From contig NZ_JAFEUN010000015.1 in NCBI RefSeq assembly GCF_016900895.1, positions 1 through 53,077 of the forward strand: DNA of 53,077 bases. Reading direction: 5' to 3'. A program made the position numbers and the translations under genes. Positions 10,513-30,601 of the stretch are shown piece by piece (position 1 is the stretch's first letter; each line of letters opens with the position of its first letter). Under the pieces are notes generated by a model that worked only from the letters and a program-made list of their open reading frames with translations, did not search any database and was not told the DNA's origin. The stretch is from Parashewanella hymeniacidonis (lineage in GTDB: Bacteria; Pseudomonadota; Gammaproteobacteria; Enterobacterales; Shewanellaceae).

Positions 10513-11685
10513 ATGCATAATAAAAACATGATTAAACAACTTTTAGCGCTTTCTGTTCTTGCCAGTGCTACAGCAATTGCTGTGCCGCTCGATGTCGAGG
10601 AACAACGCATCCCCACAGCACTACAAGAGTTACCGACTGTTGCGCTTAGGTACAATGCGTTAAATGATCAACTCATTCATAAAGTGAAAGCTAGCAAAGA
10701 AGAAAAGCAGCTCACCAAGTTGGTGGCTATTCAAGGCCAACGCCTATGGCAACAAGCGGTACGAGATGTGCAATCGGGCTCAAATGACGACAGACCACTT
10801 TATTGGTCTCGCCTTGCAATGCGCGAAACACTCAAGACAAAACCCGCAGGTTTTAAGCTAGCAGATTGGCAGCGTAACATTTTAGTCAAAGCGACAGAGC
10901 AATCTTCACGTGGCATAAATGATGTTGCCTTTGATGACAAAGCTGATATCAAAATTTTGCTAACTGGATTCGATCCCTTTTTCTTAGACAAGGATATCGG
11001 ACAGTCTAATCCTTCTGGGCTCACGGCATTAGCACTTGATGGTTATCGTTTTCAAGTGAATGGCAAGCAAGCTCAAATTGAAACCGTAATGATCCCTGTT
11101 CGCTTTGCTGATTTTGATAAGGGTATGATTGAATCGATCTTAACGCCGCTATATCGAAACAATACTATCGATATGTTGTTTACCGTGAGCATGGGACGCA
11201 AGGATTTCGATTTAGAACGTTTCCCCGGTCGTAATCGCAGTGCTAAAGCACCTGACAATTTAAATGTATATACAGGAGCAACGGCTGATAACCCTGTAAC
11301 CCCGATGCTAAGAGGCAATATTTTGAACGGCAATGAATTTGTCGAATTCACTTTACCTGTTAAAGCAATGCAAAGTGTTAAAGGTGATTGGGCGGCTATT
11401 GATAACGCTAAAATCACCACCCTAAAACGTGGTGATATTGAGGCTAAATCACTTGCAGAGCTTAATGGAGAAACTTCAGTTCAGGGCTCGGGTGGTGGCT
11501 ATCTTTCGAATGAAATCTCATATCGTGCGATTCGTTTAATGAATCAAATGAACGTAAACATTCCGAATGGGCACATTCATACACCAAGAATTAAAAACCA
11601 CGATGGAGAAACTGAAATGAACATCGTTAATCAAATTCGTCAAATGGTTGAAGCTGCGGTGACTACTCTTCCTCAGGTTCAATAG
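10513..11685 (+). CDS. Exported pyroglutamyl-peptidase I-like protein with Ser in place of the catalytic Cys
   Basis: The 390-residue protein starts with a signal peptide (LLALSVLASATAIA, ending near residue 24), has an unfamiliar region to about residue 148, then a C15 peptidase-like domain (about 150-390). The domain opens with ILLTGFDPF, the family signature, and contains FDLERFPGR, where the Glu aligns with the catalytic Glu. The usual Cys motif (G-x-[YF]-x-C-N) is GGYLSNEISY, so residue 332 is Ser. The His motif is NGHIHTP. Catalysis through Cys is therefore lost, or carried out by Ser, or the protein is a pseudoenzyme. A signal peptide is unusual because classic members are cytoplasmic. 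Its last 23 bases overlap the end of the convergent sctQ gene. Confidence 0.75.
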   Translation: MHNKNMIKQLLALSVLASATAIAVPLDVEEQRIPTALQELPTVALRYNALNDQLIHKVKASKEEKQLTKLVAIQGQRLWQQAVRDVQSGSNDDRPLYWSRLAMRETLKTKPAGFKLADWQRNILVKATEQSSRGINDVAFDDKADIKILLTGFDPFFLDKDIGQSNPSGLTALALDGYRFQVNGKQAQIETVMIPVRFADFDKGMIESILTPLYRNNTIDMLFTVSMGRKDFDLERFPGRNRSAKAPDNLNVYTGATADNPVTPMLRGNILNGNEFVEFTLPVKAMQSVKGDWAAIDNAKITTLKRGDIEAKSLAELNGETSVQGSGGGYLSNEISYRAIRLMNQMNVNIPNGHIHTPRIKNHDGETEMNIVNQIRQMVEAAVTTLPQVQ

Positions 11686-12547
11686 ATTCGACTTTTGCAA
11701 TTAACCCCGATGGGCTTCTTAGCAAAGATACTGTTGCTAAAGTTTGGCTATGAAGCTCATCGATTTGTCTTACAATTCTGGCTTCTCCCTGTTGCAAAAC
11801 TTTAATCGGTAACTCATCTCCTATCATCATGGTTCCGATATCCGCTAAATTCATTTCAACCTTAGCTAATTCAGTCAACAGTGGCGGGTAATGAAAATCG
11901 ACTTCGGGCAAGACATCATCCACCATCATACTTCCAACACCACCAGCTAACTCACTGCTTAGGCGAATTTTAGCTACAGGCCCTTGCCACCACAATAGAG
12001 CTTGCCCTTCTTCAACCTCACACTCATTGTCAATCCAAAAACCTTCGCCTACTTTTGGTATTCTGGGTTTATTACTTTTTTGAGGACTATACCCAGCAAC
12101 TAAGCTTAAATTGATCGTTGGAGACTCTCCAACAAACGGAGCCCAATGTGACACCATTGGTTGCCATATTTGAGTCGGCCAATTCACCAACGCACAACGT
12201 ACACCGCCGAGTGTTAACACTGGGGCAATCGTCTCTTCCAGCGTAAATGTTTCTGGCTTTTCAGCTACCGCTTCTACTATCCAACTTCCAACAACTTCAA
12301 ATATCACCGCACTGATACAAGGTGCAAAATCTTCGGGCATTTTTTCTAAAACCGATACCCCTGTCTGCTCCAAAACAGCTTTCTTCCAATCGGATAAAGG
12401 GATCCACACTCCTACACCATCGGGGTAATCTTGATGTTTCCAAAACATCCCATCACCAGAAATGGGCTTTAACTCTAACCGACAGTTTTGCGCTTCCAAG
12501 CCTTTGCCAATCACTTGGCTTATTTTAATGAGTAAGCTGCTTTGCAT
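11663..12547 (-). CDS. sctQ: T3SS sorting-platform C-ring protein SctQ
   Basis: The 294-residue protein is the last gene of the secretion operon, 3 bp after sctP. The C-terminal part (residues about 220-290, KVEMNLADIGTMMIGDELPI through SGLIAKVESI) fits a SPOA domain as in SsaQ, YscQ and FliN. A degenerate SPOA-like stretch lies near 175-210. SctQ forms the cytoplasmic pods with SctK and SctL and receives export cargo. In SPI-2 the next genes are ssaRSTU. Here the next gene is instead a convergent pyroglutamyl-peptidase-like gene whose end overlaps sctQ by 23 bp. The terminal EPEEE tail is intact, so sctQ itself does not look cut. Confidence 0.82.
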   Translation of the reverse strand: MQSSLLIKISQVIGKGLEAQNCRLELKPISGDGMFWKHQDYPDGVGVWIPLSDWKKAVLEQTGVSVLEKMPEDFAPCISAVIFEVVGSWIVEAVAEKPETFTLEETIAPVLTLGGVRCALVNWPTQIWQPMVSHWAPFVGESPTINLSLVAGYSPQKSNKPRIPKVGEGFWIDNECEVEEGQALLWWQGPVAKIRLSSELAGGVGSMMVDDVLPEVDFHYPPLLTELAKVEMNLADIGTMMIGDELPIKVLQQGEARIVRQIDELHSQTLATVSLLRSPSGLIAKVESIEPEEE

Positions 12548-12550
12548 AAA

Positions 12551-13039
12551 CTACCCCATGAAAATTTGAGTGTTAGACTTATGAGTGTTCTTGGGAGGGA
12601 CACACTCGAGCCTTATTCGATATGCACGGCCTTGTAATTTATCTTCTAATGGCCTCATGACATTTTTGATTGCGTGTTCTTGCTTACTATTGTGAGGAAA
12701 GAGTCGAATTCTCAACCCCTTTTTATCGTAATTTGCTTGAATAATCAGCCCTGCCATTGGACCATTAACAAGGCGATAACAGAGCATATCTTTTTGACGG
12801 GATATTTCAGCACTTCCCATTTTGCAAGTCCCCCCATCTTTAGCCAACACACGTTTTGTTGCTTTAGAGACTTTTTTTGTTGAGTTATCGTCTTTCGGCT
12901 CTTCAAACTTCCGCCCTTTAAGCAGATTAGCAAAGAGTTCTTTGTGTTGAGACTGAGGTTCAACTTCTTTTTTCTTATGATCATGTTCAACAGGTTTCGT
13001 ATGTTGTGTTTCAGTTGATTTAATTGAACTACTCATCAA
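12551..13039 (-). CDS. sctP: T3SS needle-length / substrate-switch protein SctP (SsaP-like)
   Basis: The 162-residue protein has a hydrophilic, Lys/Gln/Thr-rich N-terminal half typical of molecular rulers. Its compact C-terminal half (about residues 80-155, CYRLVNGPMAGLIIQANYD, then RIRLFPHN) fits the position of the T3S4 switch domain. SctP proteins vary in sequence, so the call rests mainly on order: it lies between sctO and sctQ, as ssaP does. The start codon overlaps the end of sctO by 11 bp. It would normally act with SctU, which is not encoded here. Confidence 0.7.
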   Translation of the reverse strand: MMSSSIKSTETQHTKPVEHDHKKKEVEPQSQHKELFANLLKGRKFEEPKDDNSTKKVSKATKRVLAKDGGTCKMGSAEISRQKDMLCYRLVNGPMAGLIIQANYDKKGLRIRLFPHNSKQEHAIKNVMRPLEDKLQGRAYRIRLECVPPKNTHKSNTQIFMG

Positions 13040-13430
13040 ACACCGCCTGTAACTTCTCTTGATCTTTCACCAATTGAAAAATTTCTTTGTTAATTTGCTT
13101 AATCGTTTGTCCAATTGCTTCTATTTGCTCTTGAACTCTGACTATCTCTTCTGCTAATTCTCGTTCATTTTGGTAACGTTTGGCTAAGTCGACTTTAAAT
13201 TCATTCATACCACTGAAATCCAAGGACTTATCTGGCAAAGTTAAGTGTCGAATCGCATCAATTAACTGATGCCTTTCAATCACTTTTTGCCTTCTGTTCG
13301 CTACCATTTGCTGAGCTTGTTTTTTTGTATCGCTCAAACGTTTTCTCAGCTTATCTTCTTTGCGAGAACGAATATCCAATATCCGCCTCAATGTTTCTTT
13401 ATCATTGTCATCAATATTAGAGCTCGCCAT
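13029..13430 (-). CDS. sctO: T3SS ATPase stalk protein SctO
   Basis: The 133-residue, highly charged protein is predicted to be nearly all alpha-helical and coiled-coil (residues about 10-60 and 75-130). It matches SsaO/YscO/FliJ-type stalks, which sit in the SctN hexamer and touch SctV. It lies 8 bp downstream of sctN, the universal position for sctO. Sequence conservation in this family is low, so position and helix pattern are the main evidence. Confidence 0.8.
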   Translation of the reverse strand: MASSNIDDNDKETLRRILDIRSRKEDKLRKRLSDTKKQAQQMVANRRQKVIERHQLIDAIRHLTLPDKSLDFSGMNEFKVDLAKRYQNERELAEEIVRVQEQIEAIGQTIKQINKEIFQLVKDQEKLQAVFDE

Positions 13431-13438
13431 TACAGCCC

Positions 13439-14788
13439 CTAATAACCATTATAGGCTACAGCTTGACTCATCAAACCCAACGCTTCATCGTAGGGCGTAA
13501 ACTCATCCGTGCCTTGTTGTAAAAACTCAAGTATGGCCTGATGAAGTTCTATTGCCTCATCAGTCTCTGCGTCTTGACCTGATTCATATTCACCAACACG
13601 GATCAGTAATTGCACTTCTTCGTATTTCGCAAGCATTTTGCGTAATTTAGATGCCGCTTTACGTTGTTCCTCTGTCACAATAATATCCATGACACGGCTG
13701 ACACTGGCATTGATATCAATGGCAGGATAGTGCCCTGCACCAGCAAGTTTTCTCGACAACACAATATGACCATCCAGCAGTGAGCGAACTTCATCGGCAA
13801 TGGGTTCATTCATATCATCGCCTTCCACTAATACCGTATAAATAGCGGTGATACTTCCAACTTTTGCAGGTCCTGCACGCTCGACTAAAGAAGACAGTTT
13901 TACAAACACACTTGGAGGGAATCCATTTGATACAGCAGGCTCACCTGCGGCTAAACCAATTTCTCTGGCAGCACGAGCAAAACGAGTCAGAGAATCCACC
14001 ATCAAAAGCACATTTTTACCTTGATCTCGGAAATACTCTGCTACCGTAGTAGCCGTCATCGTAGCCTTCATTCGCTCAAGCGGCGGTCTATCAGATGTGG
14101 ACACAACCATCACTGTTCGTGCACGGGCTTTTTCAGTGAGGTTATACTCCATGAACTCACGTACTTCTCTTCCCCGTTCACCAACCAATGCCAATACAAT
14201 TACTTCAGCATCGCAATTAGACGCTATCATGCCAAGCAGTGTACTTTTACCACCACCTGCCGCAGCAAAAATACCAACCCGTTGGCCAACCCCACAGGTG
14301 AGCGTACTATCAATCGCTCTCACTCCCATAGGTAAAATGTTTTTAATTAAAGAACGGCTGAGAGGATTTGGCGCTTGGCCTTTATTGTCTCTGATCGCAG
14401 TAGCAGTGAGTTCACCTTTGTCATCAATAGGACGCCCGAGCCCATCGACGACTCGCCCGAGTAAACCTTCTCCCAAATGGATTTGATGACCATGGCCGAG
14501 TAATTCAACCGGTTCACCGGCTTGCAACCCTGTAGTGGCATCGAATGGAGATAGAATGGTTTCATCTCCCTTCACGGCAATTACTTCTGCCTGTAGTTTG
14601 TCAGCAATGATGCATAAGTCACCTTGGTGAGCACCAGCCAAACTCGAGTGCACCAATGTTGCTCCGACTTCATTGATGTGCCCAAAATAGCGAACACTTG
14701 GTATGCTGTTTTCTACATTGAAAGGATTAAAATAAATTTTCTCTTCAATGGCTTTGGCGAGTTCAGTCTTGTTAGGTAGCTTGATCAT
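13439..14788 (-). CDS. sctN: T3SS ATPase SctN
   Basis: The 449-residue protein is the hexameric ATPase that strips chaperones from substrates at the export gate. It has the beta-barrel N-domain, a Walker A loop (GIFAAAGGGKSTLL, near residue 180), LVGERGREVREF, and Walker B with the following switch (VLLMVDSLTRFARAAREIGL). The LDGHIVLSRKLA segment and a helical C-domain complete it. Length agrees with SsaN and YscN (about 430-440). It is 10 bp downstream of sctV and upstream of sctO. The loop between the Walker A residues is Gly-rich (AGGG, where relatives have SGVG or PGVG), which should still bind nucleotide. Confidence 0.97.
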   Translation of the reverse strand: MIKLPNKTELAKAIEEKIYFNPFNVENSIPSVRYFGHINEVGATLVHSSLAGAHQGDLCIIADKLQAEVIAVKGDETILSPFDATTGLQAGEPVELLGHGHQIHLGEGLLGRVVDGLGRPIDDKGELTATAIRDNKGQAPNPLSRSLIKNILPMGVRAIDSTLTCGVGQRVGIFAAAGGGKSTLLGMIASNCDAEVIVLALVGERGREVREFMEYNLTEKARARTVMVVSTSDRPPLERMKATMTATTVAEYFRDQGKNVLLMVDSLTRFARAAREIGLAAGEPAVSNGFPPSVFVKLSSLVERAGPAKVGSITAIYTVLVEGDDMNEPIADEVRSLLDGHIVLSRKLAGAGHYPAIDINASVSRVMDIIVTEEQRKAASKLRKMLAKYEEVQLLIRVGEYESGQDAETDEAIELHQAILEFLQQGTDEFTPYDEALGLMSQAVAYNGY

Positions 14789-14798: not shown

Positions 14799-16862
14799 CT
14801 AACCTGCGTTCATCGCTTCATCAAGCGACTCACCCACTAAATCACAATGCTCAAGCACTTTAATTTCAACATCATCACCTAATTCTTGATACGAAAGCAC
14901 TGGGGTTGCAAACAGTTCTCTTTCAACAATTTTGCGTAGATAACGACGTACATCCAAAGAGGTCAACAACACACAAGGTTTATCTGTTGGCAACAACGTT
15001 TTGATTTCCGTGAGGATCATATGGGTTTGTGTCGTATTCAATACTGAGTATGAACCAGCAGTCGATTGCCTGATAGATTCACGAATCAAGTTTTCGATGC
15101 CTTCACCGATCATTAATGCAGAGATCCAGCCTTGGCGAGTTGCGAATTTACGACGAATATGTCGGCGTAATGCGATACGCACATATTCAGTGAGCATAAT
15201 GACGTCTTTTTCTTTAGGGACCCATTCAACCAAGGTTTCAAAGATGGTTCTTAAATCACGAATCGAAATGCCTTCTTCAACCAAGCGTTGAAGAATTTCA
15301 GCGACTTTACCTACGGATAAAAGCCGTTGTAGCTCTCGGATCAATTCGCCATATTTATTTTCCATGGCGTCCATCAAGTACCGTGTTTCTTGCACACCAA
15401 TAAACTCACCAATAAATCGATCGATTACTTTATTGATCAAACAAGCTGGAATCGCCTCCCCTTCGACAACAATGAGCCCCTCTTCTTTCGCTTTCTCAAT
15501 CTGTGAATCTCGTATCCAATGCAAGGTTTCTCCGTTGTAAGAGGTTACAAAACTGCGCGTGTCCATATCGACAAAACGCTCATTAAGTAACGACTCTTCT
15601 ACATCCAGTTCTAGCTGTAAAACGGGTTCTTGATACAACAAAATGTCGCACTGGCAATTTTTCTTTGTATTGACGACCTGCAGTTGAATTTCGGGCAATG
15701 GAACTCCAAGCTTCTCGAATAAAGACCATCGGAGCCGGTGTAAGGTTTCTTTCATACTTTGATGCGGATAGTCTGAGCCTAATACCAACATGAGAGGCAC
15801 GGCCCCCGGTTGCATATTGGCATCATCATCATCAGCTTCTTCTCCATCTTTCGGGAAGGCTTTATCCTCCCCTCCAGCTTCCGCTTGTTGTTGATTTTTT
15901 TTTGATAAACGCCATGTGAGAAAAAATGTCAATCCACCTAACGAACCGAAAACCCAAAGTGGAAACCCCGGTATCAGAGCAAACGTAATCATCACTAATC
16001 CAGCCATCTGTAGTGATGATGGCTGTTTCGTTATTTGCATTACCACTTCTTTACCCAAGTTCTGTCGAGTCTCACCCGGCACACGTGTAACAATTAAACC
16101 TGCGGTAATCGAAATAAGGAGTGAAGGAATCTGTGCAATCAAGCCATCACCCACTGAAAGTACAGCGTAAGTGTTCAAGGCTTCTGATGCCGACATGCCT
16201 TTTTGCATAACACCAATCGCAATACCACCAATGATGTTGGTAAAAATAACGATGATACTGGCAATCGCATCACCTTTTACAAACTTCATGGCACCATCCA
16301 TCGCACCATATAACTGACTTTCTTTCTGTACTTTGGTTCTTAATCGCTTGGCTTCTTTGGCATCAATAGTACCGGCCCTCATATCACCATCAATACTCAT
16401 TTGTTTACCCGGCATACCATCCAGAGAGAAACGTGCACTTACTTCAGCCACACGCTCTGAACCTTTGGTAATTACAATAAACTGAACAATAGTGATAATG
16501 GCGAAAATGGTAATACCGACAGCGAGATTTCCTCCAACAACAAAGTTACCGAACGTAAATACAATTTGACCAGCATCATGCTGTAGAAGGATTAATCGGC
16601 TGGTACTGATAGTCAGTGCAAGTCGATAGAGTGTGGTCACCAACAGTACCGATGGAAATACGGAAAATTCCAAGGGATCACGAATATAAATCGCAATCAT
16701 CATTAGGATAATAGAAAGTGCGAGGTTAACAGCGATTAACACGTCGATCAGAGGGGTCGGTAACGGTATGATCATCATGAAAACCGCAACTACCAGCATG
16801 ACAGCTAAAATAATATCATGACGGCCTGCGGCTTTTGCCAGCAGCTGTTGAATTTTATTCAA
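14799..16862 (-). CDS. sctV: T3SS export gate protein SctV
   Basis: The 687-residue protein belongs to the FHIPEP family, which forms the nonameric export gate. The N-terminal half has about eight membrane helices (residues about 18-325) and the conserved cytoplasmic loop with GSERVAEVSARFSLDGMPGK. An acidic linker (GEEADDDDAN, near 345) leads to the cytoplasmic ring domain (about 360-687). Length is close to SsaV (681). Its start overlaps the upstream SsaM-like gene by 4 bp, as in a tightly coupled operon. SctV normally sits over the SctRST core, whose genes are not in this window. Confidence 0.97.
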   Translation of the reverse strand: MNKIQQLLAKAAGRHDIILAVMLVVAVFMMIIPLPTPLIDVLIAVNLALSIILMMIAIYIRDPLEFSVFPSVLLVTTLYRLALTISTSRLILLQHDAGQIVFTFGNFVVGGNLAVGITIFAIITIVQFIVITKGSERVAEVSARFSLDGMPGKQMSIDGDMRAGTIDAKEAKRLRTKVQKESQLYGAMDGAMKFVKGDAIASIIVIFTNIIGGIAIGVMQKGMSASEALNTYAVLSVGDGLIAQIPSLLISITAGLIVTRVPGETRQNLGKEVVMQITKQPSSLQMAGLVMITFALIPGFPLWVFGSLGGLTFFLTWRLSKKNQQQAEAGGEDKAFPKDGEEADDDDANMQPGAVPLMLVLGSDYPHQSMKETLHRLRWSLFEKLGVPLPEIQLQVVNTKKNCQCDILLYQEPVLQLELDVEESLLNERFVDMDTRSFVTSYNGETLHWIRDSQIEKAKEEGLIVVEGEAIPACLINKVIDRFIGEFIGVQETRYLMDAMENKYGELIRELQRLLSVGKVAEILQRLVEEGISIRDLRTIFETLVEWVPKEKDVIMLTEYVRIALRRHIRRKFATRQGWISALMIGEGIENLIRESIRQSTAGSYSVLNTTQTHMILTEIKTLLPTDKPCVLLTSLDVRRYLRKIVERELFATPVLSYQELGDDVEIKVLEHCDLVGESLDEAMNAG

Positions 16863-17221
16863 AATTGGCTCCCACGACTGACCTTACTCAAAAACTGCTG
16901 TTGTAGCTGAATCATTTTGTACCAATCTCGCCCTTCGCTCGTTTTTGGACACAGGCAACTGATCATTAACTTGTGTTTGATGATAAATAACCGCTGTGGA
17001 ACGCCCATAAATGCTCTGGGGTGCCAATGCTCAACCCAGTGCTTTAAATCATTAACTTGAGTCTCCAGTAACCATGATGTCATTAACAACCTTTCGTCTT
17101 TTACTTCAAGCATGAGACCATATGGTGCCCAGTGATATTCCATTTGGTCGTCTAATTTAACTGGCCAGCGGTTTTGCAGCTGAAAGAAAGTCTCTAAATG
17201 TCGGGTAATACGTAAATCCAC
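16859..17221 (-). CDS. ssaM: SsaM/CesL-like gatekeeper cofactor
   Basis: The 120-residue protein aligns along its length with Salmonella SsaM (about 122 residues). The best block is GVPQRLFIIKHKLMISC (residues about 73-89), close to GIPQRLFLLRDGLAMSC as I remember SsaM. The gene has the same position as ssaM, between ssaL (sctW) and ssaV (sctV). SsaM, with SpiC and SsaL, holds back effectors until translocators have been exported; in EPEC the equivalents are CesL, SepD and SepL. Its presence ties this locus to the SPI-2/LEE class. Confidence 0.82.
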   Translation of the reverse strand: MDLRITRHLETFFQLQNRWPVKLDDQMEYHWAPYGLMLEVKDERLLMTSWLLETQVNDLKHWVEHWHPRAFMGVPQRLFIIKHKLMISCLCPKTSEGRDWYKMIQLQQQFLSKVSRGSQF

Positions 17222-17306: not shown

Positions 17307-18341
17307 CTATTCGTCTTCGCACCACTGATCTAATAGGTCCATCATGGCATCAGTAATATGTTCTTTTTGCTCAGGATCTCGATAGCATTTTGTTGGTAAT
17401 TGTTGCATCAAATCTCGCCAGCGCCTCAAGAAGCCTATTTGCTTACTATCTGGCACTTTCATCTTGGTAATTTTTTCTTCTAGCCACTCCCCGTAAACCC
17501 AAGATTGTTCAACCAAGTCAAGTGTTGCATCAAGCACTGATGCGTCGTCAATCTGACATGCTCTTGATAGCGCTTTACAGTAATCTTCAACACTCATGAA
17601 CAGCAATAAGCGTCTCAGGTCATCAACAACAGTGACCAACTTAACCATGTTGCTGCCTGTATTCTCTTCATTCAGTGAATTTGACAACGCTCTGAGCAAT
17701 ACCCGAATTCTTTTTCTTCTATCTGGCATATCGCGAAGCAAACTAAACCACTTAGCTAGACCACCATCGCCTCTTGCTGCACGTTGATATAACCCTTGAA
17801 GAGACTGAAGCCCTGCTTGGTCCAGCGGTAACCCTTCCATTGCGGCAATAAGTGCGAGTTCTGCACCTTCCTCTGCCAACATTTCTTGTAATTTTTTGCG
17901 TAGTTTCTTACGAACTTCTTCGCTTAGGCCACTTTGAGCAATCACGTTCGCCATGAGCAACATGACATTACCGCTATCAAGGTTCATTTGCTCAATATTG
18001 ACCATGATAGAGTCAGCATCGCCTAATGCTGCCAACTGGATTGCATTCGCAAGAATGCCATCGGCTTGCTCGCCTTCCATTTGAGCAACCAACTCTTCCA
18101 ATGCATTGAACCTGACTTCGTCCTTTCGCTCTTTACTATTTAATCGTTTTAAGTAGTTACTAAACCCTAAACTTAAATCCTCGAGCGCTTCCTCCATGGA
18201 TTCATTTGCGATCATAGCGATCTCAGCAAACTCTGTTGCGGCTAAAGAAGATGTGGTATTTGCAGGATGCACTTGCCCATTAACAGGTTTTGAATCTGCC
18301 TGAGTATCAAAGTTAACTGAAGTAGTGCCATCTACTCTCAT
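17307..18341 (-). CDS. sctW: T3SS gatekeeper SctW (SsaL/SepL-like)
   Basis: The 344-residue protein is a mostly helical gatekeeper of the YopN-TyeA/SepL family. Length matches SsaL (338) and SepL (351), so the TyeA-like part is fused. The N-terminal about 40 residues are Ser/Thr/Asn-rich and probably disordered. The HrpJ-type domain begins near residue 40 (EFAEIAMIANESMEEALEDL), and the TyeA-like end is CYRDPEQKEHITDAMMDLLDQW. It controls the order of translocator and effector export by binding SctV. An 84-bp gap separates it from ssaM. Confidence 0.85.
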   Translation of the reverse strand: MRVDGTTSVNFDTQADSKPVNGQVHPANTTSSLAATEFAEIAMIANESMEEALEDLSLGFSNYLKRLNSKERKDEVRFNALEELVAQMEGEQADGILANAIQLAALGDADSIMVNIEQMNLDSGNVMLLMANVIAQSGLSEEVRKKLRKKLQEMLAEEGAELALIAAMEGLPLDQAGLQSLQGLYQRAARGDGGLAKWFSLLRDMPDRRKRIRVLLRALSNSLNEENTGSNMVKLVTVVDDLRRLLLFMSVEDYCKALSRACQIDDASVLDATLDLVEQSWVYGEWLEEKITKMKVPDSKQIGFLRRWRDLMQQLPTKCYRDPEQKEHITDAMMDLLDQWCEDE

Positions 18342-22360: not shown

Positions 22361-22384
22361 TGTTATCGGGTATTAACCTTAATT
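22361..22384 (-). promoter_or_regulatory. Candidate T3SS operator upstream of the AraC-sctF operon
   Basis: The plus strand reads TG(T) followed by TATCGGGTATTAACCTTAA and TT. The same 24 bases, with two mismatches, occur at 26834-26857 upstream of the spiC-sctC operon. A second shared block (TTTTTACC here, TTGGTTACC there) lies 36-37 bp from the start of TATCGGG in both. Likely ligands are the AraC-type regulator or the SsrB-like regulator. Confidence 0.6.
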
Positions 22385-22422: not shown

Positions 22423-23028
22423 TTATCTGATATTCGATGCGATGTTTTTATTCATTTCTGACAGTAACGTTTGCATCGCATTGATGAGCGAAACCGTTAC
22501 GTTATAGGTCTGCAGCATCTTTTGAATTTTTAACTGCTGCTGAGCAGCATAATCAGTATCTTCACTATTTTTTGCATCTAAAGACGCTTGAATATCGCCA
22601 AGTTGACCGCTTTTGAACTTCTTTTTGTATTTTTTTAGGTATTCATCGATTGGCATACCTGCAACAGTCATATTAGCTTGTTGCATATATTTGACGATAT
22701 CAGGTGGAAGTTTTACTGATTTTTCATTGTTTGGGAGTTGCTTCATAATGTCGCCTATTCTAGCGGACATTTCATGTGTAGTTCTCGCATCCTCTTGCCG
22801 AGCAGACATCTCTTTAAACTGATCATTAGCTTGATCTTGAAGTACGTCCATATTGTTGTATAAGACAGATAGCCCTTCTGTAAACAATGAGTTGGCGATG
22901 CCATTGATTCCAGCGACTAAGCCATTAGGTGCATTAGAGTTAATTCCTTCCGATCCACTGAGCTCACCAGTTGAATTAACTTGCGAATGAGCACTTGCAT
23001 GCTGTGCACTTACATTACTGACTGACAT
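22423..23028 (-). CDS. sseB: SseB/EspA-like filament translocator
   Basis: The 201-residue protein aligns with Salmonella SseB (about 196 residues), the EspA-type filament protein. Shared features are VKLPPDIVKYMQQANMTVAG with PIDEYLKKY (compare EDVIKYM...GMTIDDYMAKY), then LGDIQASLDAK, NSEDTDYAAQQQLKIQKM and a C-terminal coiled coil. EspA/SseB subunits form a sheath extending the needle towards the host membrane. The N-terminal 40 residues are Ser/Asn/His-rich, as expected for a secretion signal. In SPI-2 the pore formers sseC and sseD follow; here the gene ends the operon. Confidence 0.87.
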   Translation of the reverse strand: MSVSNVSAQHASAHSQVNSTGELSGSEGINSNAPNGLVAGINGIANSLFTEGLSVLYNNMDVLQDQANDQFKEMSARQEDARTTHEMSARIGDIMKQLPNNEKSVKLPPDIVKYMQQANMTVAGMPIDEYLKKYKKKFKSGQLGDIQASLDAKNSEDTDYAAQQQLKIQKMLQTYNVTVSLINAMQTLLSEMNKNIASNIR

Positions 23029-23080: not shown

Positions 23081-23503
23081 CTAAAGATAACTTCTAACCT
23101 TTTTCTTCTTAACAACAGGCTTGGGCTCTTCTTTGGGTTCATTTTTCGCCGCTTCAGCAGCCGCTTTCTGTTGCTTTTCCATTTCCTCAGCTTGCTCTTT
23201 AAGCTCTTCTGGCGTTTTTGGCTTACTGCCTAAATTGGTAAACTCTTGTTCGAGCTTTTTAAAGTTCTTACCAAGCTCGCTCACTTTATTTAACACTCTT
23301 TCTTGCTGTTGCTCAAACCCCTGAGGAAATGCCTGCTGGAGTCGAAGCAACTTTTCTCTTGCTTCAGGATCCGTCTTTGCTCTTTGAACTAACGTTCGGA
23401 TTTCTGCCTGTAAACCTTGAAACTCTTTTAACTGTTCATTAATCGCATTTTTACGTTGCTTGATGTCATTCATTACCGCTTTTAAATCTTGAAAAACGTC
23501 CAT
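23081..23503 (-). CDS. sseA: SseA-like chaperone of the filament protein
   Basis: The 140-residue protein has a long N-terminal coiled coil (residues about 1-100) and contains LLRLQQAFPQGFEQQQERVL. This resembles the LFPQGV region of SseA (108 residues), the SseB/SseD chaperone. It lies immediately before the sseB-like gene, as sseA does. A C-terminal extension of about 40 residues, rich in Ala, Lys and Glu and ending KPVVKKKKVRSYL, is not in SseA and is low complexity. The call rests on order plus the short motif. Confidence 0.65.
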   Translation of the reverse strand: MDVFQDLKAVMNDIKQRKNAINEQLKEFQGLQAEIRTLVQRAKTDPEAREKLLRLQQAFPQGFEQQQERVLNKVSELGKNFKKLEQEFTNLGSKPKTPEELKEQAEEMEKQQKAAAEAAKNEPKEEPKPVVKKKKVRSYL

Positions 23504-23521: not shown

Positions 23522-23713
23522 TCATTTTTTAAGTCTTTTAAACAATAGTTCTATTACTTTCTCAGCGGCATCTACTGCTTCTTCTGTATCAATTTTGTTT
23601 CTATGATGCGACTGCTTCATTCGCTTACGCACCTCTGCAAAATGCAGCTTATATTCATCTTCTGAAGAGACTTTAGATTTAATGTCATCTTCTAATTTAG
23701 TGATCCTAGGCAT
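23522..23713 (-). CDS. sctE: Small SctE-like needle chaperone (SsaE/EscE position)
   Basis: The 63-residue, highly charged helical protein lies 9 bp after sctD and before the sseA-like gene, as ssaE does in SPI-2. SsaE, EscE and YscE (about 65-80 residues) pair with SctG proteins to hold the needle subunit. Two helices separated near residue 37 fit the fold, but direct sequence similarity is not demonstrable by eye. Confidence 0.6.
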   Translation of the reverse strand: MPRITKLEDDIKSKVSSEDEYKLHFAEVRKRMKQSHHRNKIDTEEAVDAAEKVIELLFKRLKK

Positions 23714-23722: not shown

Positions 23723-24928
23723 CTAAAATAACAATGGCACATGAGTTATCTGACCATTTTTCATTAAATCAATACCATCAATATCGATATACTCAACCAT
23801 GTAACCGTTATCCAGTTGAGTTCCCTTTGATAGTCTAAGTCCATTCTCCAATTCAACAAATGGGGCTTCAGTACTACCACCGTAACTGATAACTGAAGAA
23901 GTCAGAATACGGTTCACCTCCGAACGAACAGGGATGTTTTGAAATACTATTTTAGTACCTGTTTGCTGAATCGTTTTTGTACCTCTTGCTAGCCCAATGA
24001 TCTGCTGTTGCTTTTCTTGACTGACTTCCCCAGTTATGACAATCGAGTCGTCTAATTGTGAAAGCATAAGGTTTTGAATTAATTTATCTTTTCTTAATGT
24101 CTCAATCAGTGGCTTGATTTGTGCCCCTGATTCATTCAAAACTTGCCAGCTCACTAAACCATTTATTCCTTTTAGCATGCTTACGGTTTTATCCCACCTA
24201 TCTCCAGCTTGAATTGCACCAGAAATCGTTACACTACCGGGTGTTAAGTTTTGTTGAACTGTTACACCTTTAAAACCGTTTTGCGTAAGAATCTGTTTTA
24301 CATCAGTTACTAACTGATCGGTACACTCTGCATGCTCGATGAACAATATTCCATGAGACTTAACGCCATCAATAAATTGCTGTAGCTTTCTTGAGTCTTC
24401 ACAAAAACCATTAAATGTCACTACTCCGTTTGTAGCCCAAATGGCCTTTATTCCATCGAGTTCATTTAACGTTAACTGTTCTGACACCCACTCTTTTGGT
24501 GTCATTTCATGCTGTGGTGCTTGCACCGGATCAATTAATAGCATTAAGATCAATATAGTTGAAATCAACGAGATCCCAAGTAAAGCGATATATGAAACGT
24601 TCTTTTTCTTGCCTTTCTTCTTAGGTAATTCAGGTTCTTCAATGTCTTGGGCTGCGCTCCCTAAAACAAATAGGATACCGTCAACTTCAATAACTTCAGA
24701 AAGCGGCAAAGCCTCTTTTCCTTCACGTTTTTCGCCACCAATCAGTACTTCTACGTCAGTTTCTAAAGTAACGCTTTCATCTTCAACACTAAATTCAAGT
24801 AAATCCGTAGATTCAAGCTCAGCTAACACATCACCGTCAGGCCCAACAGTAAATTTGCCTTGAGGTAGTACTAGTTGGCGCCCTTTTAACGGACCGTTTA
24901 ACCATAAGATTTTAAAGTTTGATGGCAT
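23723..24928 (-). CDS. sctD: T3SS outer inner-membrane ring protein SctD
   Basis: The 401-residue protein matches SsaD (403) in length and layout. An FHA-like cytoplasmic domain covers about 1-100 (FKILWLNGPLKGRQLVLPQG, then TVGPDGDV). A single membrane helix lies at about 118-138 (ALLGISLISTILILMLLI), followed by a periplasmic region of BON/ring-building repeats (about 150-400). It links the inner ring to the secretin SctC and, in the cytoplasm, to SctK. It is co-transcribed with sctC, 7 bp apart. Confidence 0.92.
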   Translation of the reverse strand: MPSNFKILWLNGPLKGRQLVLPQGKFTVGPDGDVLAELESTDLLEFSVEDESVTLETDVEVLIGGEKREGKEALPLSEVIEVDGILFVLGSAAQDIEEPELPKKKGKKKNVSYIALLGISLISTILILMLLIDPVQAPQHEMTPKEWVSEQLTLNELDGIKAIWATNGVVTFNGFCEDSRKLQQFIDGVKSHGILFIEHAECTDQLVTDVKQILTQNGFKGVTVQQNLTPGSVTISGAIQAGDRWDKTVSMLKGINGLVSWQVLNESGAQIKPLIETLRKDKLIQNLMLSQLDDSIVITGEVSQEKQQQIIGLARGTKTIQQTGTKIVFQNIPVRSEVNRILTSSVISYGGSTEAPFVELENGLRLSKGTQLDNGYMVEYIDIDGIDLMKNGQITHVPLLF

Positions 24929-24935: not shown

Positions 24936-26387
24936 TCATTGGTTAACGGGTGTTGCTTTAATCAAAAATAACCTCATTACGCTCTCTACTTCATGATTTG
25001 TTGAGCTAAATAGTTTCCCTAGTATTGGTATATCTCCCAATAGAGGAATTTTATTTTTAGTCGAACGATCAACGTCTTGAACAAAACCACCAATCAACAA
25101 ACTCTCACCTGAAGTTAATGTAGCTTGTGTCGAAATTTCAGAGTTTTGTACTTGTGGTAATGGTTCTTGGCCTCCAATGGCTGCCGCTTGTTGACCATCT
25201 TGAATATTCAAAACTAAGTTCACCGCCTTGTGACCACCCGATTCATTAATAAGCCTTGGTGTCACTCTTAGTAACGATCCAGTTGTCACGGAATCAAGCT
25301 TCGCCACTTTTTCACCGGTGACTTTAGTGTAAAACGTCACATTCTTATCCAATACGGCTTGGACATTATTTAAGGTCACCACTGAAGGTCTTGAAAGCAC
25401 TTTAGCTTTTGAAACCTTCTCTAAAGCATCAAGTTTGACCAAGAAGTTGCCCGTATTACCTATCACAGTCGAAAAGCCTTGATCACTGTCTCCAGAGTTG
25501 AAACTTACAGTGCCTCCCCCCAAGCTCGCAGCTGCGGACCAGTTCACCCCTAAATTTTTGAAGTTGGAGGCATCAACATCAAATATGGATACTGATATTT
25601 CGATCATTTGTGGCTTCACATCTAACTGCTTGATGATGCCTGCATACGTTTTTTGATCATCAGCGCTGCCACGAAGAATTATTGCATTTTGTCTTGGATC
25701 TGCTGCAAAAACTGGCCCTGATTCATCAGCTGACTTTTTCAATTCTGAGCTCATTTCTCTAAGAACACTTACAAGTCCAGGCACTTTAACTGGCGAGTTT
25801 CGATAGCTATAATCAGCATCACCCGCTGAAGCATAATTGAGATGGTAGACCTTAACTTCTTCATGATTGACGGCCGCTTGTTTTGCGTTAGAGTCCAATT
25901 TTTCAATCAGCTTACTGACGGTATTAACGCAAACAGGTACACCAACTAATTGAACACTGACGATGGTTTCTTGTGGTTTTACCGTGCAAGCATGGTCCGC
26001 AAGTACGCCTGTACCATTGAGATAATCCAATACATCTTTTGAAGCGATATTACTGAGTGGTATCACTTCACTCATTAGCTCAGTGGTTTTGTAAACATAT
26101 AGAACATCAGTGTTGTAATACCAAATAAGACTGTAGCGCCGTGACAAATCATGAATCACATCTAACGGCAATTTATTTTGGATACGACCACTGAACTCAT
26201 CATTAACCTTACTGCTCACAACAATGGGAATCCCATAGTTGCCGCCAAATTCATGTAATACAGCCGCCAGAGGTGTTCCACGGCTGATCATAACAAACGG
26301 CTCTCCTTGCCACTTAATTTGGTCCAAAGTTGTACTGTGGACCAAAGTCGTAAACAAGAACAGCATTAAACCTATGAGTGATTTCAT
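24936..26387 (-). CDS. sctC: T3SS outer-membrane secretin SctC
   Basis: The 483-residue protein has a Sec signal peptide (MKSLIGLMLFLFTTLVHS), N0/N1 domains (about 20-240) and a C-terminal secretin core with VTLNNVQAVLDKNVTFYTKV, TPRLINESG and SGESLLIGGFVQDVDRSTKNKIPLLGD. It is close to SsaC (497) in length. A pilotin-binding extension is not obvious and no pilotin gene is seen. Its ATG overlaps the stop codon of the SpiC-like gene (ATGA). Confidence 0.96.
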   Translation of the reverse strand: MKSLIGLMLFLFTTLVHSTTLDQIKWQGEPFVMISRGTPLAAVLHEFGGNYGIPIVVSSKVNDEFSGRIQNKLPLDVIHDLSRRYSLIWYYNTDVLYVYKTTELMSEVIPLSNIASKDVLDYLNGTGVLADHACTVKPQETIVSVQLVGVPVCVNTVSKLIEKLDSNAKQAAVNHEEVKVYHLNYASAGDADYSYRNSPVKVPGLVSVLREMSSELKKSADESGPVFAADPRQNAIILRGSADDQKTYAGIIKQLDVKPQMIEISVSIFDVDASNFKNLGVNWSAAASLGGGTVSFNSGDSDQGFSTVIGNTGNFLVKLDALEKVSKAKVLSRPSVVTLNNVQAVLDKNVTFYTKVTGEKVAKLDSVTTGSLLRVTPRLINESGGHKAVNLVLNIQDGQQAAAIGGQEPLPQVQNSEISTQATLTSGESLLIGGFVQDVDRSTKNKIPLLGDIPILGKLFSSTNHEVESVMRLFLIKATPVNQ

Positions 26388-26782
26388 GTTCTCATTCTCA
26401 TTACAAAGTTGCGCTTAGCTTCTACTTTTTTCTTGAAGCCTTTCTCAAGGTATTGTGCAATTGCTAGGTGTGAAACAACACTTTGGGGCAATTCCGTTTC
26501 ACCTATTTCTTCGTCGTAGTAGCGCCATAACAGCCAAACATCACTTTCAAGCTGTAAGCTACAATCTTGAGCTCCATCATATGCAGCCATGACTAAGGTA
26601 GCTTTCCTTAACCAAAGTAAAGTTTCATTCAGTTCAATTTTTGGTTTAATTTGTATTGCGATCGAAAAAATACCTTCTCGATCCAAAATTCGAGCTTTTC
26701 GCTCGGCAAGTTTCCACTGATCGTGCTTAGGGTTGGCAGCTTGAGCTTTTAGAAAACCTGTTTCTAATAGTCTCTTTAACAT
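26384..26782 (-). CDS. ssaB: SpiC/SsaB/SepD-like gatekeeper component
   Basis: The 132-residue protein is the first gene of the sctC operon, the position of ssaB (spiC) in SPI-2, and has nearly the same size. Residues about 55-85 (LWLRKATLVMAAYDGAQDCS, then LQLESDVWLLWRYYDE) share a pattern with the AYVTLLLAAH...QLTADGGWLNGYY region of SpiC as I recall it. SpiC/SepD proteins have a class I chaperone-like fold and act with SsaL and SsaM. The C-terminal KKKVEAKRNFVMRMRT is unusually basic. It is a moderate call based on order and weak motif similarity. Confidence 0.6.
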   Translation of the reverse strand: MLKRLLETGFLKAQAANPKHDQWKLAERKARILDREGIFSIAIQIKPKIELNETLLWLRKATLVMAAYDGAQDCSLQLESDVWLLWRYYDEEIGETELPQSVVSHLAIAQYLEKGFKKKVEAKRNFVMRMRT

Positions 26783-26820: not shown

Positions 26821-26833
26821 TGAATCATTGCTC

Positions 26834-26857
26834 TGCTATCGGGTATTCACCTTAATT
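26834..26857 (-). promoter_or_regulatory. Candidate T3SS operator upstream of the ssaB-sctC operon
   Basis: The plus strand reads TGC followed by TATCGGGTATTCACCTTAA and TT, identical to 22361-22384 except at two positions. It overlaps the expected -35 position of the TATACT promoter. Two independent placements in front of the two secretion operons argue for a shared activator site. Confidence 0.6.
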
Positions 26858-27222: not shown

Positions 27223-29961
27223 ATGGAACACCTTTCCTTAGCCAGCAAAATGACCATTACTGTGGCATTTCTTTTTTTTAGTTGGTGGTTAATTAACGAA
27301 TATCAAACTTATCGATTTGCAATTCAATTAGAAACTAAGGAGTTTATTTCAGATCATTACCTATCGAACCAACTTGGTGTAGACACTGTTAATGATTTCG
27401 TAATAACGGCGCAGGAAGATTTATATGCGATGGATAAAGTGTTAAGACACTTTCCTGAAGCGTCTCGTCAACTTAACCCTAAACAAGACATAAAAAGTTA
27501 TTTTCTCAACTCTGAAAATAAATTTGTTTTGCAACCTGAACATGAAAAACAAATTAGCTTTTCAGAATCATTAGCAAGACTGCTTAAATATGAATACCAA
27601 GGGCTCATTGTTAAACAGAATCAAACACAAGTATTGAGTAAACAACCACTCACAGATGAAGCCTTATCGTTCATTTCTAAGTTTATAAACAACCAGAAAC
27701 TTCCAGCACTGTCATGGACAACATTTATTGAGGCTAACAATCGCTATGCTTTGGTTTGGAAGCGAGAAAAGCAAGTATCTCTTGGCTTTTTAATCAAATT
27801 AGACCCCTTACTTAATAAATTACATAATGAAAAAAAAGAGCTGTATCAATTACTGACAACCAGTAACAATCAATTTCTCAGTCAAATTCCAAGCTCACTT
27901 TCTGCTGAAAATAAAGCTGAACTTAAACAATTAGTTTCTTCAAAATTTAAAAACCAAAACATTGTTGAGGGTCAAAGGCTTATTCTCGTAAAGTCACCGA
28001 TTTACAATATGGATTGGTCTTTAATCACTCTCGTGACCAAACAATCTATTAAACAGCATTCGTTGATGCTCTTACTGAAAAAACTACCTCAATCCCTGCT
28101 TCAAATGGTGCTGATTTGTGCACTTATGCTAATTGCTTTTAACCGATTAATGCGACAGCCTATCAAGCAGATTGTTGAAATAATTTCGGATCCATTAAAA
28201 CCGAACTTGAGTAAAAAGTTACCAGAAAATCGAAATGACGAACTGGGACAGATTGCTTTAGCGTACAACAAGCTGTTGAACCAACTTCAAAAAAGTCATT
28301 CGGAATTAGAACAACAGGTCGCCAATCGTACCAAATATTTGTTAGAGGCTTCCCAAGCCGCTCAAGCGGCAAATGAGCGAAAAACAGAACATTTAACCAG
28401 TATTAGTCATGAAATTCGTACCCCGCTTAATGGAATTTTAGGCGCTCTTGAATTGATCCAAACCACCAGCATTACCCAAAAACAAAAAGGCTTAATTGAT
28501 ACCGCCTCAGATTGCTGCCATTCTCTTTTGTCGCTCGTCAATAATTTGCTGGACTTCTCTCGAATGGAGGCCGGTGAAATTGTCTTAAAGTCAATGAGCT
28601 ATCAACCTCTCGCCGTCATTGATGAAGCCATGTCTAGCATAGAATCCATTGCGATTAACAAAGGGATCAAACTGAGTACTTTTATCAATTCTGGTGTGCC
28701 TGAAGAGATGCAATTAGATCCACTACGAGTTAGGCAAGTATTAGTCAATCTGTTAGGCAATGCGGTAAAATTTACCGATAGAGGAGAAATAAAGGTGATT
28801 CTCACTTGTGCGAATCAAATGCTCGAGTACCAAATCTACGATTCAGGCTCAGGTATGACAGAAAAAGAAACCATAACGGTATTTCAACCTTACGTTCAGG
28901 GACAGCATCAAAAGTTTGGTTCTGGTCTTGGATTACCCATTTCTAAAAAACTCGCCAGTATGATGGATGGAAATTTATCGGTGATCAGTACCAAAGGGAA
29001 AGGAAGCTGTTTTACATTGTCCATCCCAATTATTGATGCTGGCGAAACGATATCACTGCCAAATTCCGACGTTTTTGCACCTTCCTATCTTCATCATCAG
29101 CTCCAAATTTGGGGGGCTCAGCCCAAATCGAGTGACAATAAAACGCTACTCAATGAATCCGAACTCATGTACATGCCCTACAAACTCTTACGCAGGGCTC
29201 AAGAAACCATCGATAACATCCCGCACTTTCCACAAAGTATTATGCCAGTGTTATTGCCATGGAAACTAAAAGTGCTGGTCGTTGATGATGTCGCAATTAA
29301 CCGAGATATTATCTCTAAAATGTTGAATGAATTAGGGCAGCTTGTTTACACAGCACCCAGTGCATATACCGCCCTTGAGTTAGGGCAAAAGAATATTTTC
29401 GATTTAGTACTCATGGACATAAGAATGCCTGAAGTCAATGGTTATCAAGCCACAAAAATCTGGCGAAACAGCGAGGATATGTTAGATAACCGTTGCCCTA
29501 TCATCGCGCTTACTGCCAACGCAGAACCTCAAGAGCAAGCTGCGTTTGAAAAAGCAGGGATGGATTACTATGTAACGAAGCCAGTTACGCTCAGAGAACT
29601 CAATCATGCTTTAGAGGTTGCTGTCGACATTCAACTTGAGCGAGATATTTCGTTAACGATAAATAATGACAATGACATGCCATTACTCGATATTATGGGA
29701 ACAGATTTAACCAAAAAATTGTATAGCCAACTGCTCGAAATGCTTTTAAGTCTAAAAGGTGCATTAGAAGTCTATAACTGGGAAGCGGCAAAAAATATTC
29801 TGCATACGATAAAAGGAACGGGTGGGTTAGCTGGGCTGACATCAATTGCTGATTCAGCCACAAAACTCGAGCGACGATTAGAAGAAAATAACTTTTTAAA
29901 ACTTGGAGACTTAGCCGAATTAAATGAACAAATTAAAGCGATGGAGTTTGATTCTATCTAA
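27223..29961 (+). CDS. ssrA: Hybrid sensor kinase, SsrA-like
   Basis: The 912-residue protein has nearly the same length and layout as Salmonella SsrA (about 920). A first membrane helix (about 8-24) is followed by a periplasmic sensor region (about 25-288), a second helix (about 289-308) and a HAMP segment (about 310-375). The histidine kinase domain has His396 in SISHEIRTPLNG, with ATP-binding DSGSGMT and GSGLGLPISKKLA. A receiver domain carries Asp732 in LVLMDIRMPEVNG, and a C-terminal Hpt domain has His861 in LHTIKGTGGLAG. It should sense an external signal and pass phosphate through His-Asp-His to the SsrB-like regulator. It is divergent from the secretion operon. SsrA responds to acid and osmolarity; the signal here is unknown. 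Confidence 0.88.
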   Translation: MEHLSLASKMTITVAFLFFSWWLINEYQTYRFAIQLETKEFISDHYLSNQLGVDTVNDFVITAQEDLYAMDKVLRHFPEASRQLNPKQDIKSYFLNSENKFVLQPEHEKQISFSESLARLLKYEYQGLIVKQNQTQVLSKQPLTDEALSFISKFINNQKLPALSWTTFIEANNRYALVWKREKQVSLGFLIKLDPLLNKLHNEKKELYQLLTTSNNQFLSQIPSSLSAENKAELKQLVSSKFKNQNIVEGQRLILVKSPIYNMDWSLITLVTKQSIKQHSLMLLLKKLPQSLLQMVLICALMLIAFNRLMRQPIKQIVEIISDPLKPNLSKKLPENRNDELGQIALAYNKLLNQLQKSHSELEQQVANRTKYLLEASQAAQAANERKTEHLTSISHEIRTPLNGILGALELIQTTSITQKQKGLIDTASDCCHSLLSLVNNLLDFSRMEAGEIVLKSMSYQPLAVIDEAMSSIESIAINKGIKLSTFINSGVPEEMQLDPLRVRQVLVNLLGNAVKFTDRGEIKVILTCANQMLEYQIYDSGSGMTEKETITVFQPYVQGQHQKFGSGLGLPISKKLASMMDGNLSVISTKGKGSCFTLSIPIIDAGETISLPNSDVFAPSYLHHQLQIWGAQPKSSDNKTLLNESELMYMPYKLLRRAQETIDNIPHFPQSIMPVLLPWKLKVLVVDDVAINRDIISKMLNELGQLVYTAPSAYTALELGQKNIFDLVLMDIRMPEVNGYQATKIWRNSEDMLDNRCPIIALTANAEPQEQAAFEKAGMDYYVTKPVTLRELNHALEVAVDIQLERDISLTINNDNDMPLLDIMGTDLTKKLYSQLLEMLLSLKGALEVYNWEAAKNILHTIKGTGGLAGLTSIADSATKLERRLEENNFLKLGDLAELNEQIKAMEFDSI

Positions 29962-30601
29962 GACCTAGTCTTTGTGCCCAAATCATCAATTCAGCCACAT
30001 TATGAGCATCCAGTTTACGCATAAGGTTAGTTCTATGCGTTTCAACCGTCTTAAGGCCTATCACTAAATCTTCTGCAATATCTCGATTTCTCCGGCCTTC
30101 ACAAATTAATGTCAGCACTTGTTTTTCTCGATTTGTTAATACAGGAGCGTCATCGTCTTCTTCCATCTGCAATGCCCTAATTTGCTCCTCATTGAGACTA
30201 GGGTCAATGAACACTTTACCTTTTGATACCGTCTTGATTGCTGCATATAATGTACTTTTAGGGCTATTCTTTAATAAATAGCCATTCGCACCAATATCCA
30301 GAGCCTGCCGAGCCGTTTTCTCTTCTTCTACAGCAGTAAGCATGATGATAAGAATCTCTGGCCAGCGTTGCTTCAACTGTTTAATGACCTCAATACCATT
30401 CATCTTAGGTAATTTAAGATCCATGAAAACGAGATCAGGTTCTAAGCGGATACACTCAGAATATACAGACAAGCCATCTTCAACAAAACCAACCAGTTTT
30501 AGCTCAGGGAAAGGAGCTAGACAACTTTGCAGTCCATCAAAGATTAAAGAATGATCGTCAACCACAAGAATCTTCATACTTTTAAGGCGATCAAAAGACA
30601 T
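29954..30601 (-). CDS. ssrB: NarL/LuxR-type response regulator, SsrB-like
   Basis: The 215-residue protein has a receiver domain (about 9-125, KILVVDDHSLI, phosphoacceptor Asp61 in LVFMDLKLPKMNG) and a LuxR-type helix-turn-helix (about 150-212, LTNREKQVLTLICEG and LKTVETHRTNLMRKL). AGGAG lies 7 nt before the start codon. Size and domain order match SsrB (212). Unlike Salmonella, where ssrA and ssrB run in the same direction, this gene is convergent with the kinase and overlaps its end by 8 bp, so the two are not co-transcribed. It is the expected activator of the secretion operons. Confidence 0.85.
   Translation of the reverse strand: MSFDRLKSMKILVVDDHSLIFDGLQSCLAPFPELKLVGFVEDGLSVYSECIRLEPDLVFMDLKLPKMNGIEVIKQLKQRWPEILIIMLTAVEEEKTARQALDIGANGYLLKNSPKSTLYAAIKTVSKGKVFIDPSLNEEQIRALQMEEDDDAPVLTNREKQVLTLICEGRRNRDIAEDLVIGLKTVETHRTNLMRKLDAHNVAELMIWAQRLGLR

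Follow-up and report, generated by a model that had tools for sequence, protein, structure and literature searches.

A SPI-2/Ssa-Esc-class injectisome of Parashewanella that appears to be divided among four chromosomal sites

The injectisome core in the window

The stretch analysed here (the window) is the entire contig NZ_JAFEUN010000015.1 (C57; 53,077 nucleotides) of Parashewanella hymeniacidonis, whose genome (G000) comprises 4.81 Mb in 307 contigs. Positions 11663-30601 carry the core of a type III secretion injectisome of the Salmonella pathogenicity island 2 (SPI-2)/Ssa-Esc class, which runs in open frames from sctQ through an SsrA/SsrB-like regulatory pair. An initial annotation, made from the letters alone, had listed needle, rings, gate, ATPase complex, sorting platform, gatekeepers, filament protein and regulators in open frames, and all of these were recovered as follows:

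11663-12547, minus strand: sctQ, C-ring/sorting platform (NCBIfam YscQ/HrcQ match, weak at E 7.6e-5 and 22 bits, cut-off 230; also position and similarity in congener, Shewanella and Vibrio loci)
12551-13039, minus: sctP, needle-length regulator by position (no family over cut-off; after sctO, with similarity in related loci)
13029-13430, minus: sctO, stalk by position (weak HrpB7/SpaM-like Pfam hits below cut-off)
13439-14788, minus: sctN, export ATPase (NF005295, 717 bits, cut-off 690)
14799-16862, minus: sctV, major subunit of the export gate (NF009363, 1095.6 bits, cut-off 993; among the three FHIPEP proteins that the genome search gave, the sole non-flagellar one)
16859-17221, minus: gatekeeper protein, presumably SsaM from its position (no Pfam family; directly before sctV in the Shewanella and Vibrio loci)
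17307-18341, minus: sctW, SepL/SsaL-type gatekeeper with HrpJ and TyeA domains (PF07201 and PF09059 over cut-off, NF011872 below)
18366-19259, minus: sctL, stator (TIGR02499, E 8e-9, below cut-off)
19229-19888, minus: sctK of the SPI-2/locus of enterocyte effacement (LEE) class (PF13327, E 1.9e-39)
19909-20631, minus: sctJ, inner ring lipoprotein (PF01514)
20628-20987, minus: sctI, inner rod (PF17001)
21000-21320, minus: DUF1039 needle co-chaperone, presumably SsaH/EscG from its position (PF06287)
21348-21563, minus: sctF, needle (PF09392)
21574-22272, minus: AraC-family regulator (PF12833, PF00165)
22366-22381, no strand: SsrB-type palindrome with 2 mismatches, upstream of the AraC/needle operon
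22423-23028, minus: sseB/espA-type filament protein (PF03433 and NF052422 over cut-off)
23081-23503, minus: CesA/SseA-like chaperone (PF11439, E 7.7e-5, below cut-off)
23522-23713, minus: needle chaperone in the SsaE position (weak PF08988, below cut-off)
23723-24928, minus: sctD, inner ring (PF21937)
24936-26387, minus: sctC, secretin (NF011873, 683 bits, cut-off 524)
26384-26782, minus: small protein, presumably SsaB/SpiC from its position (no family; similar protein in congeners and relatives)
26839-26854, no strand: SsrB-type palindrome with 2 mismatches, upstream of the sctC operon
27223-29961, plus: SsrA-like hybrid sensor kinase (NF011874, which we take to be the SsrA model, 844.5 bits, just below the cut-off of 852)
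29954-30601, minus: SsrB-like NarL-family response regulator (NF011896, which we take to be the SsrB model, 318 bits, cut-off 242; C-terminal domain resembling the structures of EsrB and SsrB, with VraR the best structural match over the full length)

SctV, SctN and SctC thus exceed the cut-offs of their best NCBIfam models, and SctQ and SctL are weak matches. Both borders of the core lie inside C57 and are occupied by unrelated genes, pyroglutamyl-peptidase-like on one side and MaoC and a methyl-accepting chemotaxis protein on the other, and sctQ overlaps the convergent peptidase-like gene (10513-11685, plus) by 23 bp, both as annotated. The annotation was equally right in finding sctRSTU, the SseC/SseD pore formers and the SscA/SscB chaperones absent. 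Searches of the window by tblastn with SctR, SctS, SctT, SctU, SscA, SctE, SctB, the SseE-like protein and SscB gave a best E value of only 0.95, and all genome-wide matches to FliP/SctR, SseC and LcrH/SycD lie on contigs other than C57.

Detached modules and their conservation in the genus

The initial annotation had preferred a split system and proposed a genome-wide profile search, which placed all the missing parts on other contigs: sctRSTU on C297, and the translocators and CesD-type chaperones on C68 and C2. Of three proteins that match the FliP family, only that at C297:25103-25696 scores above the cut-off for SctR. It is part of an isolated, open sctR-sctS-sctT-sctU operon (C297:25040-28003), which Pfam domains of the neighbours place between trkH-hemG with an M14 peptidase gene on one side and rhodanese-tdh-kbl on the other (we take hemG, tdh and kbl to be the appropriate names). 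SctR, SctS, SctT and SctU each exceed their NCBIfam cut-offs. SctU additionally exceeds NF009364, whereas the SPI-2 models for SctS (NF011877) and SctT (NF011876) score just or clearly below their cut-offs.

Searches with the SseC and LcrH families led to a small operon of sscA-, sseC-, sseD- and sseE-like genes on C68 and to a lone sscB-like gene on C2. NF052422, NF052420 and PF04888 are over cut-off for the SseB/SseC/SseD translocon, and LcrH_SycD is just below cut-off for both chaperones. A FHIPEP search gave the SctV of the window and two proteins that pass the FlhA cut-off, so that the genome contains one SctV and one SctR against two FlhA and two FliP-type proteins that miss the SctR cut-off. 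All nine core components (SctC, J, N, Q, R, S, T, U and V) are present in this one genome, SctQ by weak profile and position. The arrangement that is usual, though not universal, for the class, a single island with sctRSTU behind sctQ, is not found; instead, clusters of core genes stand at several sites with no flagellum-specific genes among the open reading frames (ORFs) read around them, which is the pattern of scattered non-flagellar type III secretion systems (NF-T3SS).

The division extends to all five genomes of our genus sample (G000, G394, G395, G396 and G397), in each of which core, gate operon, translocon and sscB occupy separate places. In all five, the gate operon stands between trkH-hemG and rhodanese-tdh-kbl, the translocon between lysS and dgc-rep genes, and sscB between a yihY-type gene and the gene of a 303-residue protein, with a larger gap on one side in the relatives. 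The core adjoins the same peptidase-like gene in every congener, and its MaoC side is visible in four (the G394 contig ends there). Two of the genomes are single contigs. In G396 (5,468,749 b) the core lies at 4.84 Mb, the gate at 34 kb, the translocon at 725 kb and sscB at 487 kb; in G397 (4,222,191 b) they lie at 3.52 Mb, 29 kb, 537 kb and 300 kb, respectively. With these contigs treated as circles, the distances from the core in G396 and G397 are ~0.65 and ~0.72 Mb for the gate, ~1.34 and ~1.23 Mb for the translocon and ~1.1 and ~1.0 Mb for sscB. The sample represents at most four well-separated lineages because G395 is near-identical to G000 (96-100% identity in most components, lower at about 90% in SctE and SctB). 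The four-part layout is kept between congeners whose SctV and SctN are ~80% identical.

Two further features were seen at or near the gate operon. SctU (L005:6801-8003) has a long acidic tail, with 382-400 residues in all five congeners compared to 349-353 in Shewanella G398 and two Vibrio genomes. About 11 kb from the operon, a 921-residue protein with a ubiquitin C-terminal hydrolase domain (L004:11190-13955) is a possible secreted effector.

A shared palindrome and a shared history

Promoter alignment revealed a palindrome that sctR shares with the sctC operon. In scans for TCAGGT-N4-ACCTGA, it lies 70-75 nt upstream of sctR with 0-1 mismatches in 17 of 17 copies (five from the genus, nine from Shewanella and three from Vibrio), whether the gate is attached or detached, and it precedes the sctC and AraC/needle operons with 1-2 mismatches in all five congeners. 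As controls, 30 of 3,000 random 320-nt sequences reached at most two mismatches and one reached a single mismatch, while 49 of 4,000 random 250-nt stretches drawn from the same loci, real sites included, reached at most one. A degenerate form of the pattern gave 92 hits in eight genomes against 17 for the reversed pattern, with exact palindromes counted on both strands; we read 20 further sites, eight of which lie inside ORFs of at least 100 codons and may be due to chance. Among 19 other loci, nine have the palindrome before sctR with at most two mismatches, and it is missing in ten, including LEE-type, two insect-symbiont-type and two Endozoicomonas-type loci.

The SsrB box is described in PMC2837388 as an 18-bp 7-4-7 palindrome with the chromatin immunoprecipitation motif ACmTTA and a functional site before ssaR. 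Read with its flanking bases, the genus motif has this published form: at the sctR, sctC and needle promoters it is an 18-bp tail-to-tail 7-4-7 palindrome with ACmTTA-like half sites, and similarity of the regulator suggests that the SsrB-like protein of the window binds it. The detached gate keeps the control palindrome of the core, so the two appear to belong to a single machine under joint regulation. The presence of the palindrome at sctR in all 17 copies, relocated ones included, as well as before the sctC and needle operons, suggests that the gate moved together with its switch.

The two parts were also compared by phylogeny. Trees were built from SctV+SctN and from SctR+S+T+U, with 33 rows in each, and were followed by second trees in which Shewanella rows were added and seven rows (long branches or Pandoraea) removed, leaving 33 rows for SctV+SctN and 35 for the gate. 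Core and gate trees both unite the copies of the genus, Shewanella and Vibrio with support of 99-100, and the branching within the genus is identical in the two; how the Shewanella, Vibrio and genus groups branch from one another is unsettled or not the same in the gate and core sets. The system is placed by phylogeny in the Ssa-Esc class, in line with scores over cut-off for NF009363, NF011873 and NF009364, models which we take to represent it.

Detachment of the gate appears not to be confined to the genus. PF13327, a mark of the class, occurs in six of 394 genomes of the order, G000 included. In a survey of 80 named SctV-bearing loci from several injectisome classes, SctR lay at most 8 kb downstream in 57 and elsewhere in the stretch in four; 13 had none despite at least 7 kb of sequence, and six were too short. 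Close relatives of SctT (E below 1e-86) were found in 14 of 152 genomes of the family, namely the five congeners and nine of the Shewanella group (one of them, G517, is probably the same record as G398/L033). Eight of these nine have sctR directly behind sctQ. In the ninth, Shewanella G501, the 20 kb that were read show an isolated sctRSTU next to a DUF481 gene and with an exact palindrome 73 nt upstream, and in the gate tree G501 groups with Shewanella whose loci are contiguous (support of 100/98 for the five-row group, 98/98 for the four-row group and 86/65 at the nearest fork). The isolated G501 gate may be a remnant; if it is not, detachment occurred at least twice. Neither the shared operator nor this second detachment was foreseen in the initial annotation.

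Several other arrangements were also noticed. The sctV of Shewanella G483 (L277) aligns in pieces and is apparently interrupted, with the rest of its locus contiguous. In three Endozoicomonas-type drafts (L066, L070, L071, L271-L273), SctV and SctC share a contig and SctN lies with SctRSTU on a second one; this may be another kind of split, in which the ATPase goes with the gate. Two further drafts (L067, L072) have SctR on another contig. In the small-genome relative G022 (L274-L276; a single contig of 1.66 Mb), SctJ-K-L-W-V-N lie at ~860 kb, SctRSTU at ~931 kb and SctF at ~961 kb, with no SsrB-type box before sctR.

A different conserved element, TTTTTCGATAT, lies ~245 nt upstream of sscA (L020:9136), where it is exact in four of five congeners; it recurs at two further positions in the 37 scanned stretches. 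The palindrome was also found away from the secretion genes. It lies 83-98 nt before a protein of 140-141 residues with alike N-terminal ends in G000, G396 and G397 (L244:3062-3582; L249:3367-3888; L254:3788-4308); the protein has no Pfam match in G000, the same site is present in G395, and the sites overlap ORFs of the opposite strand. The protein is a possible further regulon member. Another lies 51-65 nt before a GbpA_2-domain protein in G000, with similarly placed ORFs in G397 and G394 (L241:3183-4079; L253:3631; L257:3941). Others stand 79-296 nt before effector-like proteins (L246:3660-5457; L251:451-3311; L259:3472-4673): a 572-residue protein with no Pfam match in G395, an ankyrin-repeat protein in G396 and a dual-specificity-phosphatase-like protein in Shewanella G398. 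The window itself encodes a 670-residue ankyrin-repeat protein at 48416-50428 and, at 1593-7257, a multidomain acetyl-CoA carboxylase with a divergent LysR gene. The latter resemble the accS/accR pair described in Shewanella, for which PMC11602165 also names Parashewanella.

Interpretation and comparison with known systems

Taken together, the sequences make it highly probable that Parashewanella has one complete SPI-2/Ssa-Esc-class injectisome whose modules stand at four chromosomal sites (core with regulators, sctRSTU, sscA-sseC-sseD-sseE, and sscB), that core and gate are co-regulated by the SsrA/SsrB-like pair, and that the split is derived. Under this reading, the sctRSTU operon would have left a once-continuous island together with its own promoter, the pair encoded in the window would switch on core and gate jointly, the translocon module may be under other control, and the products of the separate loci would assemble into one export machine.

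Several observations weigh against this reading. Secretion, and DNA binding by the response regulator, are predicted from sequence, and the agreement of gate and core trees was judged by eye. The palindrome is not significant in the window alone, where four matches with at most two mismatches compare with 1.73 expected and eight of 100 shuffles reach four. In the genus, the sscA and sscB promoters, like those of SseB and the response regulator, stay at the chance level of 4-5 mismatches; so does the SsaM-position/sctV operon promoter, whose counterpart in Shewanella and Vibrio has the palindrome, and the SsrB-box form is missing at the sscA, sscB and SsaM-position promoters. SctU has NPNH in place of NPTH, presumably its site of autocleavage, in four of five congeners. 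SctK and the 63-residue chaperone have ratios of nonsynonymous to synonymous change (dN/dS) of 0.47 and 0.75 between G000 and G395, at a dS of just 0.040 and 0.027, that is, with very few silent changes. Finally, the SsrA-like sensor-kinase gene, one open frame in G000, G394, G395 and G396, is divided over two frames in G397 (L288:437-3141), through either a mutation or a sequencing error.

The kinase gene bears on the alternative that the system is being dismantled and that its scattering is a step of decay, which we consider improbable. Genes expected at the locus are indeed missing from it, and the interrupted sctV of Shewanella G483 also points this way, but all module genes are open in G000, and the genes listed are open and of similar length across the five congeners with the G397 kinase as the sole exception. 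The layout, moreover, has persisted despite the divergence of SctV and SctN. Between G000 and G395, dN/dS (NG86) is 0.033 for SctR, 0.054 for SctS, 0.051 for SctT, 0.050 for SctU, 0.026 for SctV and 0.043 for SctN; it lies within 0.02-0.06 for SctV, N, C, J and W, and at about 0.1 for SctE and SctB. The similarly low values for G394 and G397 are a rough guide only because dS is mostly above 1. These ratios indicate that the gate genes are under purifying selection. The initial annotation had named loss of export as one outcome, to be judged by dN/dS of sctN, sctV and sctC and by inactivating mutations in sister strains; the ratios and open frames do not support it, and the sister strains are mostly conserved, apart from the G397 kinase.

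Still less probable is a separate machine for the sctRSTU operon, one that has no connection with the window's core. The distance between the two loci speaks for it, but no other non-flagellar SctV was found, both extra FliP-type proteins fall below the SctR cut-off, the gate and core trees agree, and the operator is common to both. That the split is an assembly artefact, with sctRSTU truly behind sctQ, is suggested by the 307 contigs of the genome but has next to no probability: unrelated genes flank gate, translocon and core, each in the interior of a contig, the same junctions recur in the single-contig G396 and G397, and the initial annotation's proviso of sctRSTU just outside the window through a rearrangement did not hold. 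Borrowing of flagellar FliPQR/FlhB, which the annotation had also considered and which their homology would permit, is scarcely credible and not needed, because beside two FlhA and two FliP-type proteins the genome has its own SctV and SctR, within a dedicated non-flagellar sctRSTU set over the SctR/S/T/U cut-offs.

The split injectisome leads to a broader suggestion, which we consider as likely as not: the gate operon, operator plus sctRSTU, would be a portable self-regulating cassette that left the island at least twice independently, in the genus and in G501, and that in Vibrio occupies the opposite end of the island, so that a dispersed injectisome may be a stable architecture and not a product of relaxed regulation or decay. 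The products of sctRSTU probably form a self-assembling subcomplex; with this and an SsrB-type promoter of its own, the cassette could leave the island without loss of function. Injectisomes are usually treated as single-locus systems, and a scan for one cluster would call such a locus incomplete. The regulated, genus-wide split suggests that long-term inheritance of gate, translocon and core as separate modules is possible. The palindrome offers a motif for seeking the regulon, possible effectors included, in genus, Shewanella and Vibrio genomes.

Our literature search found no publication joining Parashewanella with type III secretion and, among the papers listed on dispersed or split systems (subscription papers lay outside the search), no title with this arrangement. 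Scattered NF-T3SS are reported in PMC3459982 from Chlamydiales, Hamiltonella defensa and plasmid pYPTS01 (21 of 216 systems), and a lack of specific regulation is proposed there to ease scattering. The genus resembles those systems in having a complete set of parts over several loci but differs from them in its large genome and in retaining regulators and shared operators: the SsrA/SsrB-like pair (with the kinase frame interrupted in G397) and the AraC regulator are kept. It provides a natural test of that proposal (PMC3459982) and of what keeps the genes clustered elsewhere.

Salmonella SPI-2 and symbiosis region 3 (SSR-3) of Sodalis share with the genus the SsrA/SsrB-like regulators and the SseB/C/D/E-type proteins. 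SPI-2 forms one island in which ssaRSTU follow ssaQ, and the order of the remaining core presumably matches that of SPI-2 and SSR-3. Salmonella also has SsrB-type palindromes, one of them before ssaR, as in the genus (PMC2837388). Type III secretion system 3 (T3SS3) of Vibrio, of the Ssa-Esc family (PMC9967039), is of the same class, and Vibrio copies group with this core and gate; the Vibrio loci compared here are likely T3SS3, the strains of that paper being others. The same operator precedes the operons of sctR, sctC, the needle and sctV in two of these loci. Vibrio hepatarius and Vibrio sp. RE88 have one island, with sctRSTU at its far end beside the response regulator and not behind sctQ, whereas in the genus gate, translocon and one chaperone are elsewhere. 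The Shewanella Ssa-Esc systems (G398/L033, G482, G483, G523, G473, G516, G520 and G521) are nearest, or among the nearest, to the genus in core and gate sequence and have the same operator before sctR, but unlike the genus they keep sctR directly behind sctQ. Parashewanella thus seems to have a machine of a known type with an unusual genomic arrangement, what is new being a regulated modular split in a 4-5-Mb genome, with a gate that seemingly moved with its own promoter.

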